Of a stretch of DNA of 64,000 bases, positions 37,137 to 42,910 are shown in pieces. A program made the translations under genes and the position numbers. The notes under the pieces were generated by a model. It searched no databases. It was not told where the DNA came from and was given only the letters and a program-made list of their open reading frames with translations. Position 1 is the stretch's first letter; every line of letters starts with the position of its first letter. This DNA comes from Clostridiales bacterium (GTDB taxonomy: Bacteria; Bacillota; Clostridia; Saccharofermentanales; Saccharofermentanaceae): the NCBI GenBank assembly GCA_017617525.1, contig JAFZWA010000050.1, positions 1 through 64,000 on the forward strand. Direction: 5' to 3'.

Positions 37137-38204
37137 ATGGCAAATGATTTTTCAACCATCCTGCAGAAGCTTGAAAACCTGGCTAGCGCCAACAATAACA
37201 GCATTTCATCACTTGACGTGATGAACATCATCGAAGAACAGGACGGCGATCCGGATCTGGTAGATAAGCTCTTTGACGAGCTGGAAGCTAAAGGAATCGC
37301 CATCGTAGCGGAGACATCCGTAGAGGATGACGCGATCCGCGAAATGAACCTTGACGCAAACGTCGCGGACGGCGCGGGTATGGATGACCCGGTCCGCATG
37401 TACTTAAAAGAGATCGGTAAAGTTCCGCTTCTTACCGCAGAGCAGGAGCAGGAGCTCGCACAGCGCATGCTCGAAGGCGATGAGGACGCGAAGTCCCAGC
37501 TGATCGAGGCAAACCTTCGTCTTGTTGTTTCCATCGCGAAGCGTTATCTCGGACGCGGCATGCAGTTCCTTGATCTGATCCAGGAAGGTAACCTCGGTCT
37601 GATCAAAGCGGTTGACAAGTTCGACCACTCCAAGGGCTTTAAGTTCAGTACTTACGCGACATGGTGGATCCGTCAGGCGATCACCCGTGCGATCGCCGAT
37701 CAGGCAAGAACGATCCGTATCCCGGTACACATGGTCGAGACCATCAACCGTCTGGTTCGTGAGCAGAGAGCTCTCATCCAGGAACTCGGTCGTGAACCTA
37801 CCGTAGAAGAAATTGCCGAAAGAATGAATCTTTCCGTTGAGAAGGTCCGTGAGATCCAGAAGATCTCCCAGGAGCCGGTTTCTCTGGAAAAGCCGATCGG
37901 TGAAGAGGAAGACAGCCACCTTGGTGACTTTATCCCGGATGACGACGCGATGTCTCCTGCCGATCAGGTAGCTTATACACTTCTGAAAGAGCAGCTCCTT
38001 GACGCCATGAAGGGTCTGACCGCAAGAGAAGAAAAAGTACTTCGTCTGCGTTTCGGTCTCGATGACGGCCGTCAGCGCACACTCGAAGAAGTCGGTAAAG
38101 AGTTCAACGTTACTCGTGAGCGTATTCGTCAGATCGAAGCCAAGGCACTTCGTAAGCTTCGTCACCCGAGCCGCAGCAAGAAACTGAAAGACTACATCGA
38201 CTAA
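37137..38204 (+). CDS. rpoD: RNA polymerase primary sigma factor (RpoD/SigA)
   Basis: A 355-residue group 1 sigma factor. Region 1.2 begins at [18 protein letters not shown] (about residue 82). Region 2 has the [10 protein letters not shown] and [19 protein letters not shown] motifs with [10 protein letters not shown] (2.4). Region 4.2 has [20 protein letters not shown]. Region 1.1 is short, as in many Firmicutes. The ATG at 37137 follows AAGGAGGA. The rnf-like cluster starts only 27 nt downstream with no terminator between, so read-through is expected. Confidence 0.97.
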
Positions 38205-38231: not shown

Positions 38232-39572
38232 ATGAAGAAACTAACTTTCAAAACAGGATTCATGCCAAAAGACGGGCTGGACTTTGTGCATCAACGCAAG
38301 TTTATGCGCGAAGCCCTGCTTGAAGTCTGCTCGCCGAGGGAAGTAACGATCCCGATGAAGCAGCATACGGGAACGGCATGCGATCCTGTTGTTTCTGTCG
38401 GGGACAGTGTCGCCATGGGCGATCTCATCGGTGTTCCCGCCGATATGCACGGCGTTCCCGTGCATGCCAGTATCTCCGGAACAGTCACGAAAGTCGACAT
38501 GATCCGCCTTCCGAACAAGGTCAGCTGCAAGGCCGTCACCATTAAAAACGACCTTCGCCGCCGTGTTTCAAACAAGATCCAGCCGAGAAAAGATATTTCG
38601 AAGCTTTCGCTTCCGCAGCTCAAGAAGCTCCTTTGGACTTCCGGCATCTGCGGAATGGGCGGAGAGGGGATCCCCACATACACCAAGTGCCTCCGCGCGG
38701 AAAAGTTCGGCGTTGATACTCTTCTTGTAAACTGCACGCAAAGTGAACCTTTCCTTTCCTGCGATCTGCACCACGTCCGCGTAAATCCGTCGAAAGTCCT
38801 TGAGGGCGCGATGGCGTTAAGCGGTATCTGCCGCGTAAAAAAGGTCATCTTCTGTATCGAGGAAACCTGGACGGACGAGATCGACGCGCTTTCCCGAGTC
38901 GTCAATAACGCAAAAGAACGCTACATGGACAGAAAGATCGAGATCCAGCTTTTTAAACCGCGTTTTCCGCAGGGCTGCCAGTCGCTTCTGATCAAGGCAC
39001 TTTACAAGGTCGAGCTTCCCATGGGAAAAGAACCGGAAGAGGTCGTAAAGGCGGTGCTTTTCAATGCGTCTACCTGCTACGCGTTTTCCGAGATGATCGA
39101 AAAGAACCAGCCGCTGACATCCCGTATCGTCACGATCTCCGGTGATACGATCACCGGCCACAACGTACTTGTCCCGATCGGAACGAGCGTTTCCGAGATC
39201 CTCGAAAGAGTTCCCGGCGCGCACACCGCGCAGCGAATCGCCTGGGGCGGCGCGCTTACCGGCGTTGCTTTAAGCAGCCTTGACGTTCCGATCATCAAGA
39301 CCACGACAGCGATCACGATCATAAGAAAATTCGAACCGCCGAGACTGAACTGCATCCATTGCGGAGCCTGCGTCGGCGCCTGCCCGGTCGGTCTTTCGCC
39401 GTTCCTACTAAACCGACTGATCGAGCTCGGTCAGACCGAAGAACTCTCGACTGAATCCGTCGAGCAGTGTATCGCCTGCGGCGCGTGCTCGTATGTCTGC
39501 CCGGCCGGTATCGAACTTTCGACCAATATCGCAAAAGCCGCCCACAGGGCGAGAAGGAGCGCTGCACGATGA
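38232..39572 (+). CDS. rnfC: Rnf electron transport complex subunit C-like protein
   Basis: A 446-residue RnfC homologue, the peripheral subunit that in Rnf complexes exchanges electrons with NADH. The N-terminal barrel-like region has PVHASISGTVTKVDM. The nucleotide/FMN region reads GMGGEGIPTYTK then NCTQSEPFLSCD, where the family usually has GAECEPYLT, so this part is divergent. Two ferredoxin motifs are intact: CIHCGACVGACPVG and CIACGACSYVCPAG. The ATG at 38232 follows AAAGGCAGG. The stop overlaps rnfD. See the findings for the whole cluster. Confidence 0.88.
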   Translation: MKKLTFKTGFMPKDGLDFVHQRKFMREALLEVCSPREVTIPMKQHTGTACDPVVSVGDSVAMGDLIGVPADMHGVPVHASISGTVTKVDMIRLPNKVSCKAVTIKNDLRRRVSNKIQPRKDISKLSLPQLKKLLWTSGICGMGGEGIPTYTKCLRAEKFGVDTLLVNCTQSEPFLSCDLHHVRVNPSKVLEGAMALSGICRVKKVIFCIEETWTDEIDALSRVVNNAKERYMDRKIEIQLFKPRFPQGCQSLLIKALYKVELPMGKEPEEVVKAVLFNASTCYAFSEMIEKNQPLTSRIVTISGDTITGHNVLVPIGTSVSEILERVPGAHTAQRIAWGGALTGVALSSLDVPIIKTTTAITIIRKFEPPRLNCIHCGACVGACPVGLSPFLLNRLIELGQTEELSTESVEQCIACGACSYVCPAGIELSTNIAKAAHRARRSAAR

Positions 39573-40537
39573 AAAGAAAACAGCTCGCTCCCCATATTCA
39601 CGCAGACCAGCCGGCAGCGGAAAGATACGTCTATGTTCTGCTCGCTCTTCTTCCGGCGCTTTTAGGCGCGATCTTCTACTACGGGATCCGCGTCCTGATC
39701 CTTGCCGCAGTCTCGATGTTCGTTTTCTTTATGACGGACTATACGATCTCGAGTAAGCTTTACCCTGAGATGCCTTTCCATGTGGACTATAGTTCCCTGG
39801 TTTCCGGATTCCTTCTGGCACTGATGGTGCCTTCTTCCACGTCTGTCTGGGCGATCATCCTGGCGGCGCTTTTCGGCTCCGTGCTGGTCAAGCAGGCCTT
39901 CGGCGGCGCGGGTGCGAACATCTTCAATCCGGCGTTTGCCTCGAGAGCATTTCTCGAGTTCGCGTTCCCGACACAGATGATCGCCAAAGAGGCTCCGTTT
40001 AAAGGACTTTGGAACCTGGCCACACTCTGGACGGGAAAGCCTTCCGCCGAATCCATGATCCAGCCGGTCACTTCGACAAAGTGGCTCGATATCTTCTCGG
40101 GAAGACTGGTCGGCATGGCGGGCGTTACCTCGATCGTGCTTCTTCTTTTCGGACTTCTGATCTTGGTGGAAAGAAAGCTCTTCCGCTTTGAGGCGCCGCT
40201 TGGGTATATCCTCGTGATCGTATTCGGATATGTCCCGTTCTACTGGGATTCTCTGAACTTCAGCTCATTCTTTACATGGCTTTCCGTCGGTGGCATCCTG
40301 TTAGTTGCGATCTTCGCGCTGAACGACTGTACGACGACGCCTATGGATCCGAGAGGAAGATTTGTTTTCGGACTGGACGCGGGACTTCTGACACTGATCC
40401 TTTACCGTTTCGGAAACAGCAATTACGCGATGGTCTTCCCGATATTGATGATGAATATGACCACACCGATCTTTGACCGGTATCTGCGTCCGAGAGTCTT
40501 CTCGAAAACAGCATGGCATCGGGAGGTGGAGAAATGA
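39569..40537 (+). CDS. rnfD: Rnf electron transport complex subunit D-like protein
   Basis: A 322-residue membrane protein with eight or nine hydrophobic segments and the C-terminal family pattern TPMDPRGRFVFGLDAGLLT and MMNMTTPIFDRYL. In RnfD an FMN is attached to a threonine in an SGATPL-type motif; the equivalent here reads VTSTKWL (about residue 170), keeping a threonine but not the surrounding residues. The GETS motif of the family is GVTS. The ATG at 39569 overlaps the rnfC stop by 4 nt. Subunit assignment is good; cofactor binding is uncertain. Confidence 0.85.
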   Translation: MKRKQLAPHIHADQPAAERYVYVLLALLPALLGAIFYYGIRVLILAAVSMFVFFMTDYTISSKLYPEMPFHVDYSSLVSGFLLALMVPSSTSVWAIILAALFGSVLVKQAFGGAGANIFNPAFASRAFLEFAFPTQMIAKEAPFKGLWNLATLWTGKPSAESMIQPVTSTKWLDIFSGRLVGMAGVTSIVLLLFGLLILVERKLFRFEAPLGYILVIVFGYVPFYWDSLNFSSFFTWLSVGGILLVAIFALNDCTTTPMDPRGRFVFGLDAGLLTLILYRFGNSNYAMVFPILMMNMTTPIFDRYLRPRVFSKTAWHREVEK

Positions 40538-41781
40538 CGCGTTCATTTTTTAAAGGCCTGACGATCCGTGCGGTTATCTGCGTGATTTTAAGTATGACGT
40601 TCCTTCTTTCGTGCCTTTGGTACACAAGAAGTGTCAACAGATCCAAAGAGCAGGACGCCTATAGAGAAGAATACGGAACGCTTCTGATGGCCGAAAGGTA
40701 TCGCGCACTCAATACGGATGTCCTGAAAAACCATAAGGATATCAAGTCTGTATACAGCGCCTATGACGAGACCGGGAAGCTCATCGGCTATATCGTTGAT
40801 GTCGAGACGGAAGTTTCTTCCGGCAAGATCCACGCGCAGATGAGCATCAGTGAAAACGGTGAGAACCTCATGAATATCCGTGTCGTTCAGGACGATCCGG
40901 AATATCTGACCTATACGGAAGATGAGATGAACGAACTTCGTCTTCAGCTGAAAGGCGCCCGTATCCCGGTCGCTGTCCGTCAGGATGTCGCGATCGATAC
41001 CCCGTATCAGGTGGACTATGACCCGCTTTTAGGCCTTCACGACGGAACCTTCTATGCAAGAAGCAAGGAAGCCGCAAAGGACGGATATGTCGATTATGTC
41101 GAGATCGTCGTCAAGGGCGGACGTATCGTCAACTGCTCCTGGGACGCGGAGGATGAATCTACGCACAAAACGCGTTCCGAAGATTCCATCAGCGGTGACT
41201 ATAAGACAAGCGGAGAGATCTGGGCCGAGCAGGCATATCGCGTTGCCAAGCAGATGGTCCTCGTGCAGGATCCCGTCAAGCTCGCGATGAAGTCCGACGG
41301 TAAGACGGAGATCATCGACGGCGTAACGATGGACATTTCGATGTTCGTGTCTCTTGTCGACCAATGCATCGAGAATTCCAGAAACTCCTACAGTAAAGAG
41401 CAGTATATGCATGACCATTCGGATGATAAGAAATCCGAAGGCGATGATAAGAAGAAAGATAACGAGAAGGACGAGACGACAAATGAGAATGAGGAGCTGA
41501 CTCCGACGCCCGCTCCGCAGCTCAATCCCTCGCAGGATCTTTCGCCGACTCCGATGCCGACAAGAGCGCCGTCTCAGATCGGTGTTATCGGCGGTGAAGA
41601 CGGCGTGGTCGCTTCCGGGGACGAGAATGTCCTTTCGGACAGCGTGGACGGTATCCCGATGAACGAGATCCGTACGAGGATCGACGGTCTTTCGGACGAC
41701 AAGGCAAGAAGCGCCGCTCTTCTGACGGCGGTCAATCAGGCATATAAGTTTATACGTGAATATTTGAACTGGGTAGGATGA
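40534..41781 (+). CDS. rnfG: Rnf subunit G-like protein with altered FMN-binding motifs
   Basis: A 415-residue protein with one N-terminal membrane anchor (about residues 10-30) and an extracytoplasmic FMN_bind-like region (about 70-290). Canonical RnfG has SGATxT, whose threonine carries FMN. Here the two best candidates are DSISGDYKTSGEIW (about 219) and IIDGVTMDISMF (about 264), neither canonical. A long acidic/lysine then Thr-Pro-rich linker (about 290-350) leads to a C-terminal ~65-residue region, making it roughly twice the usual RnfG length. The ATG at 40534 overlaps rnfD by 4 nt. Confidence 0.72.
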   Translation: MTRSFFKGLTIRAVICVILSMTFLLSCLWYTRSVNRSKEQDAYREEYGTLLMAERYRALNTDVLKNHKDIKSVYSAYDETGKLIGYIVDVETEVSSGKIHAQMSISENGENLMNIRVVQDDPEYLTYTEDEMNELRLQLKGARIPVAVRQDVAIDTPYQVDYDPLLGLHDGTFYARSKEAAKDGYVDYVEIVVKGGRIVNCSWDAEDESTHKTRSEDSISGDYKTSGEIWAEQAYRVAKQMVLVQDPVKLAMKSDGKTEIIDGVTMDISMFVSLVDQCIENSRNSYSKEQYMHDHSDDKKSEGDDKKKDNEKDETTNENEELTPTPAPQLNPSQDLSPTPMPTRAPSQIGVIGGEDGVVASGDENVLSDSVDGIPMNEIRTRIDGLSDDKARSAALLTAVNQAYKFIREYLNWVG

Positions 41782-41782
41782 T

Positions 41783-42910
41783 ATGAGCGAGAATCGGTGT
41801 ATTACATTAAAACAATATCGCATATTGCTTTCGTTCTCGCTGCTTCTGATCTTCACGACGAGTTCGCTTCCGGCGTTCTTTTCCGCCGCGGTCCAGGTCA
41901 TCCTTTTCTGCCTGATCGAGCTTTTCATCTTCTCGCACCTGAAGAACAAACGCGTCTGCTGGGCGATCTTCATGATCCTCGCGGCGGCTTTCGGCGAGGG
42001 CATGTATTTCCTTTCGGAATACCTCCCGGACAGCCTTTCGAGCGGCGGATTCTTCCTGCTTCCGGCGTCGACCTTCCTGTTCCTGATGGTGCCGATGTTC
42101 GATTATTTTTCCGAGGAAAAAGCACTTGCCGTGTCCGATCTGACGCATGGTCTGATGTTTTATGTCCCTGTAGGCTTCATGATCTCTACGATCCGTGAGA
42201 TATGCGGAAACGGCGCGGTCATGGGCGAACATTTCAACGCGCTCGACAAGGTGCATGTACATTTCTTCGAGCATACCGCGGGATCCGCGATGCTGGTGCT
42301 TTTCGCGCTGGTGTGCCTGCATGCCGTAAAAAATGACGGCTTGGATAAGACCTGGATCCTGGATACTACCGAACAGAAAATGAAGAAGTACCGCCCGATC
42401 TCGGGAAAAAGCGAGAAGAACTTTTTGACCCTTTCGATCTGCGTTCTTGTATATGACACGATCTTCGGTATTCTCGGGATCCTGTTCGTTCACAGTGTCG
42501 ATGCGGAGCTTCTGCGCCCGGCGCATTTTGTCCTGATTTCGGTCGTTACAACGATCATTCTTCTGACACCGCTCGTAAAGATCTTCCGTCTTTCGGAGAC
42601 GATGGACAAATACTTCTATGTGCCGCTTCTTTGCGTCATCACGACATCGATCCCGCTCGTTATCTACGCGAAATATCTGGAGGCGGCGGCACATCCGATC
42701 TCGGCAGAGCGCATCATCTGGTGGGCGATGCTCATGCTCGGTGTGTGGCTCTTTACGGCGATCGTCATCGCCTATACAAGATCGATCCAGGGACGTCTTC
42801 TTTTCGGAAAGCACCCGAAATGCCTGGAAGGGATCCCATTGATCGTTCTTCATGTGCTTCTTACCATGATCGTATTTATGCCCTGGACGGAAGTCCTTGA
42901 AAAGTTTTAA
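41783..42910 (+). CDS. Putative RnfE-RnfA fusion membrane protein
   Basis: A 375-residue integral membrane protein, about twice the length of RnfA or RnfE. The first half has TIREICGNGAVMG near residue 133, matching the IREILGxGxxxG signature of RnfE, preceded by a hydrophobic PMFDYFSEEKALAVSDLTHG stretch that parallels NCxILGRAEAFA...DGL. The second half has LLRPAHFVLISVV and VPLLCVITTSIPLV, which parallel the LR..F.LVI and PLITTNCAVLG parts of RnfA. The cysteines that bind the intramembrane [2Fe-2S] cluster in those families are not at the aligned places. It occupies the rnfE-rnfA position after rnfG, 1 nt downstream. The homology is inferred by eye. Confidence 0.55.
   Translation: MSENRCITLKQYRILLSFSLLLIFTTSSLPAFFSAAVQVILFCLIELFIFSHLKNKRVCWAIFMILAAAFGEGMYFLSEYLPDSLSSGGFFLLPASTFLFLMVPMFDYFSEEKALAVSDLTHGLMFYVPVGFMISTIREICGNGAVMGEHFNALDKVHVHFFEHTAGSAMLVLFALVCLHAVKNDGLDKTWILDTTEQKMKKYRPISGKSEKNFLTLSICVLVYDTIFGILGILFVHSVDAELLRPAHFVLISVVTTIILLTPLVKIFRLSETMDKYFYVPLLCVITTSIPLVIYAKYLEAAAHPISAERIIWWAMLMLGVWLFTAIVIAYTRSIQGRLLFGKHPKCLEGIPLIVLHVLLTMIVFMPWTEVLEKF

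Follow-up and report, generated by a model that had tools for sequence, protein, structure and literature searches.

Gene organization of the cassette

The window, by which we mean the whole stretch of DNA analyzed, comprises 64,000 nucleotides (positions 1 to 64,000 of the forward strand of contig JAFZWA010000050.1, Clostridiales bacterium assembly GCA_017617525.1). It contains the tightly packed gene order rpoD–rnfC–rnfD–rnfG–P0001 gene, in which the P0001 gene is the last of four rnf-type genes and consists of an intact frame of 375 codons. The features of the locus are as follows.

37137..38204 (+): rpoD, encoding the housekeeping sigma factor; conserved neighbour on the upstream side, probably heading the transcription unit
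38232..39572 (+): RnfC-like subunit, 446 aa; TIGR01945 310.9 bits, above cut-off; 7zc6_C E=2.1e-65
38739..38750 (+): QSEP replacing the canonical RnfC ECEP; Q in 34/35 cassette members
39348..39512 (+): RnfC ferredoxin domain, 2 x 4 Cys; from domain scan and residue counts
39569..40537 (+): RnfD-like subunit, 322 aa; PF03116 E=3.6e-66; residue numbering from 7zc6_D
39926..39928 (+): RnfD Asn equivalent by alignment to Asn124 of C. tetanomorphum, riboflavin site; 32/34 members
40325..40327 (+): RnfD Asp equivalent by alignment to Asp248 of C. tetanomorphum, riboflavin and proposed Na+ site; 34/34 members
40534..41781 (+): RnfG-like subunit, 415 aa; one transmembrane (TM) helix, FMN-binding-like domain, PT-rich linker and conserved C-terminal segment
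41317..41328 (+): DGVT where, by alignment, the SGAT flavinylation motif should sit
41783..42910 (+): RnfE-RnfA fusion (P0001), 375 aa; 11 TM helices predicted, N-in/C-out
41783..42331 (+): RnfE-like half, TM1-TM6, with the invariant RE of IREICGNGAVMG; from 7zc6_E and 9eri_E matches, class-wide rnfE and hhalign
42332..42433 (+): K/R-rich linker, predicted cytoplasmic; mean of 6.8 Lys/Arg in the TM6-TM7 loop, more than in any other loop
42434..42907 (+): RnfA-like half, corresponding to RnfA TM2-TM6 with TM1 absent; from profile versus 9eri_A and hhalign
42791..42838 (+): GRLLFGKHPKCLEGIP, matching the RnfA cytoplasmic loop before the last helix (RxRxxxxxVPxxLxGxP); in five genera, Gly does not vary and Pro hardly varies

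The rnfC-like and rnfD-like genes overlap by 4 bp, as do the rnfD-like and rnfG-like genes, and the P0001 gene starts 1 bp past the rnfG-like stop codon. No terminator-like site was found in the 27-bp gap between rpoD and the rnfC-like gene. Promoters and terminators predicted inside the operon were rejected, as they were no more than expected by chance. A gene for an rRNA methyltransferase lies downstream of the P0001 gene. There is no rnfB beside the cassette in the window, nor between rpoD and the fusion gene (EA) at the other cassette loci, and no extra subunit such as NqrF was found in the cassette operon, either in the window or at the other loci. The same genome carries, on another contig, a complete canonical rnfCDGEAB operon with its cofactor motifs; the window cassette is thus a second, diverged system. 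Separate rnfA and rnfE genes belonging to this cluster would, according to the first-pass annotation of this DNA, have refuted a fusion. Such genes exist, but they are those of the canonical operon and not of this cluster.

The N-terminal half of P0001 corresponds to RnfE

The identity of P0001, which contains IREICGNGAVMG, LLRPAHFVLI and PLLCVITTSIPLV, was missed by automatic annotation and by single-sequence searches and was recovered by profiles of its homologues. P0001 alone matched nothing in Pfam or NCBIfam, and neither P0001 nor any of 21 homologues, searched as single sequences, matched the Rnf-Nqr family PF02508 (RnfA/RnfE/NqrD/NqrE) at its curated cut-off. A profile of the 21 homologues searched against the Protein Data Bank (PDB) up to E=10 returned just two matches, 7zc6_E (0.012) and 9eri_E (0.074), both of which are RnfE and are in register along the first half of P0001. 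Searched against 391 genomes of the class, the fusion profile hit 73 at E<=1e-5. Except for P0001, the matches cover the first half and belong to open reading frames about 200-317 codons long. The best three (E 1.5e-11, 1.4e-9 and 4.4e-9) were found by reading to be rnfE of canonical operons, and the neighbouring rnfA in these three operons was not matched by the fusion profile.

Comparison of profiles with hhalign pointed the same way. Against 63 RnfE sequences, the N-terminal half gave P=2.4e-7 across 172 columns, as compared to 0.097 against RnfA, and no reversed decoy fell below 0.07. In the alignment, the invariant RE of IREICGNGAVMG pairs with the RE located after RnfE TM5. The proposed resemblance of the first half to RnfE was therefore borne out by both the profile comparison and the PDB search. 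In the sister genus, g2, the RnfE half alone was not detected by HMM-HMM comparison, and the g2 fusion is tied to the family only through its shared position, its 11-TM plan and its C-terminal half.

The C-terminal half resembles RnfA without its first helix

When a profile of the C-terminal half built from five genera was compared with the PDB, the top match was Acetobacterium woodii RnfA (9eri_A, E=1.8e-4, residues 39-183), followed by chains of the unrelated YnaI channel at E of about 5e-3, which is a warning about composition. The alignment spans RnfA TM2 through TM6. In HMM-HMM comparisons, the C-terminal half from the window genus (g1) and genera g3-g5 gave P=8.6e-5 against RnfA versus 0.017 against RnfE, and that from g2 gave 1.1e-4 versus 0.39; reversed decoys gave at least 0.03. 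The most conserved piece of this half is a segment of the type R(R/L)xxFxKxPxxxEGxP (RLLFGKxPxxLEGxP), which corresponds to the loop preceding the last helix of RnfA. Judged by these alignments, it is this C-terminal segment that provides the best evidence for RnfA. The RnfA-like nature proposed for the second half thus stood, but not on the motifs quoted in its support.

The evidence for the RnfA half, as read from these comparisons, is of moderate strength and weaker than that for the RnfE half. One may therefore ask whether only the N-terminal half derives from Rnf, the C-terminal half being an unrelated five-helix segment whose likeness to RnfA reflects hydrophobic convergence. The weak scores, the compositional matches to YnaI and the restriction of the similarity in g1/g3-g5 to the last 40 columns are compatible with this. 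However, the g1/g3-g5 and g2 profile sets each favour RnfA over both RnfE and the reversed decoys, with the C terminus in register, and the segment adjoins an RnfE half, occupies the position of rnfA in an rnfE-rnfA gene pair and has matching loop charges. We consider convergence quite unlikely.

RnfA and RnfE are the textbook case of homologous membrane proteins of opposite topology. From averaged hydropathy and counts of Lys and Arg in loops, RnfE was predicted to have six TM helices with both termini inside, and RnfA six with both termini outside. For the fusion, 11 helices (6 + 5) in an N-in/C-out arrangement were predicted in both the g1/g3-g5 and the g2 sets, in which the C-terminal half is only about 9-15% identical with that of P0001; positive charge is strong in the TM6-TM7 linker and in the loop between TM10 and TM11. 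A protein that ends inside cannot be joined directly to one that starts outside, so one helix must be gained or lost. According to the alignments, the helix lost is RnfA TM1. Its loss moves the start of RnfA from the outside to the inside, and RnfA can thus follow RnfE, whose end is inside. TM1 is one of the two RnfA helices with a cluster cysteine (Cys25 in C. tetanomorphum; PMC9588780). The first-pass annotation had proposed a fusion of inverted-topology homologues, which agrees with the 11 predicted helices, except that the first helix of RnfA is missing, as inverted topology requires; the criterion of six helices per subunit that characterizes the RnfA/RnfE family is consequently unmet.

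At every canonical locus examined, RnfE and RnfA were encoded separately, and no full-length homologue of the fusion was found outside the host family among 391 genomes of the class. Open frames of 400-450 aa that suggested further RnfE-RnfA fusions were rejected, since each fetched locus contained two separate genes. An AlphaFold2 model of P0001, built from three sequences only, had a mean pLDDT of 40 and provided no confident structure. As separate observations, strongly diverged yet separate RnfE/RnfA pairs occur at L130:5630-6893 and L133:4175-5480 (genus g14), L188 and L189; L130 and L133 also have RnfD with SGATP, and the four loci may represent further Rnf variants. Canonical RnfE with a Cys-rich C-terminal extension (CGVAGDSSDCLSCGGCSLCKG; CLAGDCSGCSLSSAC) was seen at L127:9100-9981 (G000:C42) and L192:1432-2187, a possible extra metal site. 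To our knowledge, such an extension is not part of the usual RnfE.

Distribution, ancestry and selection

The cassette hosts belong to one family of rumen and gut Clostridia and cover all five of the five genera sampled. Homologues of P0001 without internal stops were present in 28/59 related genomes, down to 21% identity; they occur in g1 and in the same-family genera g3 and g5, whereas the versions in genera g4 and g2 are more diverged and 380-445 codons long. The order C-D-G-EA was found in all 34 loci examined, among which L112 and L114 have the EA frame in position with a score under the profile threshold, and L131 has it cut by the contig end. In the five genera, rpoD is directly upstream of rnfC at every retrieved cassette locus long enough to include this position (L122 starts too near rnfC to show it). 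In a tree of RnfC, the cassette sequences form one clade with a support of 100, separated by a long branch from canonical RnfC, including the copies in the same genomes, which points to a single origin and long divergence of the cassette.

The dN/dS of EA was 0.19-0.27 with respect to relatives at 86, 58 and 37% identity, and RnfC is under tighter constraint, with lower values. The cassette is under purifying selection. The open frame of 375 codons, its homologues in related genomes and these ratios together confirm the claim of a single 375-residue gene after rnfG.

Among 78 genomes of g2, 76 encode an RnfD of the cassette type, none RnfA/E and one the flavin transferase ApbE; RnfB was not seen above cut-off in any of 38. 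The sole ApbE (G161:C27:16024-16833, L165) could be a gain or contamination. Two further irregularities were seen among the cassette loci. A g1 genome has two EA copies (G012:C28:17540-18664 and G012:C145:3756-4880), about 55% and 53% identical to P0001, which are either paralogues or the product of a mixed metagenome-assembled genome. In g2, RnfC and RnfD of one cassette form a single frame of 808 codons (L109:4348-6774, G160), which looks like a C-D fusion unless it is a sequence error.

Cofactor sites lost and retained

Residue roles were taken from PMC9588780 and PMC12174285, and numbering was transferred from 7zc6 by alignment. Both cluster cysteines were present in 63/63 canonical RnfE and in 63/63 canonical RnfA sequences, whereas the fusion family has no conserved cysteine at the aligned columns. 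The four cysteine ligands of the [2Fe-2S] cluster are gone, as an alignment by eye had suggested, and no Cys or His that might replace them is conserved family-wide in the fusion.

RnfC is better preserved. The eight cysteines of its [4Fe-4S] clusters are kept in 35/35 cassette members and the glycine-rich GGxGxPTxxK loop is largely conserved; the Q of QSEP takes the place of an E found in all canonical RnfC compared. In RnfD, the riboflavin-site residues are kept (Asn124 equivalent in 32/34 members, Asp248 equivalent in 34/34). The Thr that carries FMN is present at its column in only 2/34 members, and the equivalents of Asn90 and Glu185 in 0/34 and 1/34, respectively, so that the alignments indicate a loss of residues on the extracellular side of RnfD. 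One cassette RnfD (L131:1647-2681, G024) still has the flavinylation motif SSATP and is a possible intermediate in cofactor loss; given this protein, loss of the FMN of RnfD may not be universal.

At the aligned site of RnfG, SGAT occurs in 0/35 members; the window copy reads DGVT, and some relatives have R, K, V or E instead of the Thr of this motif. The RnfG-like protein has new invariant residues, and no full-length G-like protein was found outside the host family among 299 genomes of the phylum. A profile of 25 members matched 2kzx_A (E=9.3e-28) and 3o6u_A (E=1.8e-5), and the protein matched the NCBIfam PplA model with E=2.2e-4. This membership in the same family as flavin-binding lipoproteins raises the question of extracellular electron transfer, in which electrons would pass from RnfC-D to an RnfG-like domain with a non-covalent flavin and on to an outside acceptor; half-Rnf/Nqr systems for one-way electron export are indeed known (PMC8238504). 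The defining feature of the known export systems, however, is a flavinylation cluster in which NqrB/RnfD is fused to NqrF. With the Thr for FMN lost from RnfD in 32/34 members, SGAT lost in 35/35 and ApbE missing from g2 apart from one genome, a gap would remain between the riboflavin and the outside. Electron export thus appears unlikely. Since g2 is nearly without ApbE, flavinylated D and G could not be made there by the known route, which is independent support for the loss of the covalent flavins.

The g2 genomes also bear on the proposal of a working Rnf with unusual parts, in which the canonical operon would supply RnfB or the missing cofactors and EA would conduct through another cofactor. 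The window's genome does contain a complete canonical rnfCDGEAB, and RnfC and the riboflavin site are kept in the cassette. This proposal is nevertheless largely refuted by g2, which keeps the cassette despite the absence or near absence of RnfA/E, RnfB and ApbE, and it finds no conserved residue in the fusion that could replace the cluster ligands; we regard it as very improbable. The many cofactor sites that are gone could alternatively mean that the cassette is a decaying, non-functional leftover of a duplicated rnf operon. The dN/dS values of EA and the lower ones of RnfC, the intact frames, the synteny fixed in five genera, the presence of RnfD in nearly all g2 genomes and the new invariant residues of G speak against decay, and selection together with retention leads us to rule this reading out, with next to no residual weight.

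Proposed origin and function

We favour the explanation that P0001 is a single-chain RnfE-RnfA within an Rnf-shaped complex that keeps its redox end and is not a pump, and we assign a probability of roughly 0.6 to this explanation as a whole. The homology of both halves, the 11 predicted helices, the C-D-G-EA operon behind rpoD and the losses and retentions of cofactor sites are established at the level of sequence; the steps below are inferred.

The ancestor of the family would have possessed a diverged rnfCDGEA operon without rnfB, in which rnfE and rnfA were joined in frame and RnfA shed its first transmembrane helix. The four proteins would still assemble into an Rnf-shaped complex, an inference for which there is no biochemical evidence. 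Electrons would enter at RnfC, with NADH or NADPH as the likeliest cytosolic donor, and would pass to the riboflavin near the inner face of RnfD, leaving the chain NAD(P)H-FMN-2[4Fe-4S]-riboflavin; donor and chain are inferred from motifs only. The electrons would be unable to cross the membrane to the FMN of RnfG or to come back via the [2Fe-2S] cluster. With no wire left to carry electrons from riboflavin outwards and back, the complex would not be a ferredoxin:NAD+ pump. The residues rule the cassette out as an ordinary Rnf pump, and since it fails several features that define Rnf, it should not be annotated as an Rnf complex. The suggestion in the first-pass annotation that a fusion would fix the pairing of the two subunits is not likely to be the point for a working Rnf, with RnfB and both covalent FMN sites missing as well.

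The near-universal retention across the sampled genomes implies that the cassette probably does a new, unknown job. Most likely, the redox end drives or gates a conformational change of D, EA and the extracellular domain of G, providing an ion path under redox control or a signal across the membrane, or else the complex works as an NAD(P)H dehydrogenase with a membrane-soluble acceptor reduced at RnfD. Sequence data cannot decide between such a conformational device and an acceptor-reducing dehydrogenase. We tentatively propose, with somewhat less than even confidence, an Rnf-derived class without electron flow across the membrane, in which an NAD(P)H-reading RnfC-RnfD, EA and an extracellular domain form a redox-gated ion path or signaller, and which would be the sole Rnf-like system of g2.

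Models of the Rnf/Nqr pump disagree on whether the D or A-E modules can act in the absence of cross-membrane electron flow. The cassette splits Rnf, retaining the redox end in the cytosol and the scaffold in the membrane and losing the trans-membrane wire, and whether these modules can act, for example by gating ions, without such flow is now directly testable. A natural RnfE-RnfA fusion that solves the problem of orientation by dropping one helix is in addition a clean evolutionary experiment. There is also a consequence for annotation: as RnfC and RnfD score as Rnf, g2 genomes may be wrongly credited with an Rnf pump, and the fused gene is left unnamed automatically.

Comparison with known systems

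No RnfA-RnfE fusion was found described in the open-access literature that we searched. The closest system is Rnf itself (RnfABCDGE; C. tetanomorphum 7zc6 and A. woodii 9eri), with which the cassette shares the order C-D-G-E-A, the two [4Fe-4S] motifs of RnfC, the riboflavin-site Asn and Asp of RnfD and, by profile, RnfE and RnfA. It differs in that E and A form one 11-TM chain without RnfA TM1 and without the four cluster cysteines, and in the absence of the FMN-Thr in D and G, of RnfB and of the Asn90 and Glu185 equivalents of RnfD.

The NQR/RNF-like flavinylation clusters (Meheust 2021, PMC8238504) are likewise partial Rnf/Nqr systems with one arm of the electron path, but they have an RnfD/NqrB-NqrF fusion and flavinylated proteins; the cassette has neither, and ApbE is almost absent from g2. 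The PplA-type flavin lipoproteins of extracellular electron transfer contain the same type of domain as the RnfG-like subunit, in which the flavinylation Thr motif is unconserved. A precedent for the proposed origin is Na+-NQR (NqrABCDEF), which likewise goes back to a duplication of the rnf operon with loss of rnfB (PMC4014512). Na+-NQR keeps separate NqrD and NqrE, the [2Fe-2S] cluster and both covalent FMN and adds NqrF, none of which applies to the cassette; conversely, NqrA lost its cofactors, whereas the cassette RnfC keeps its cluster motifs.
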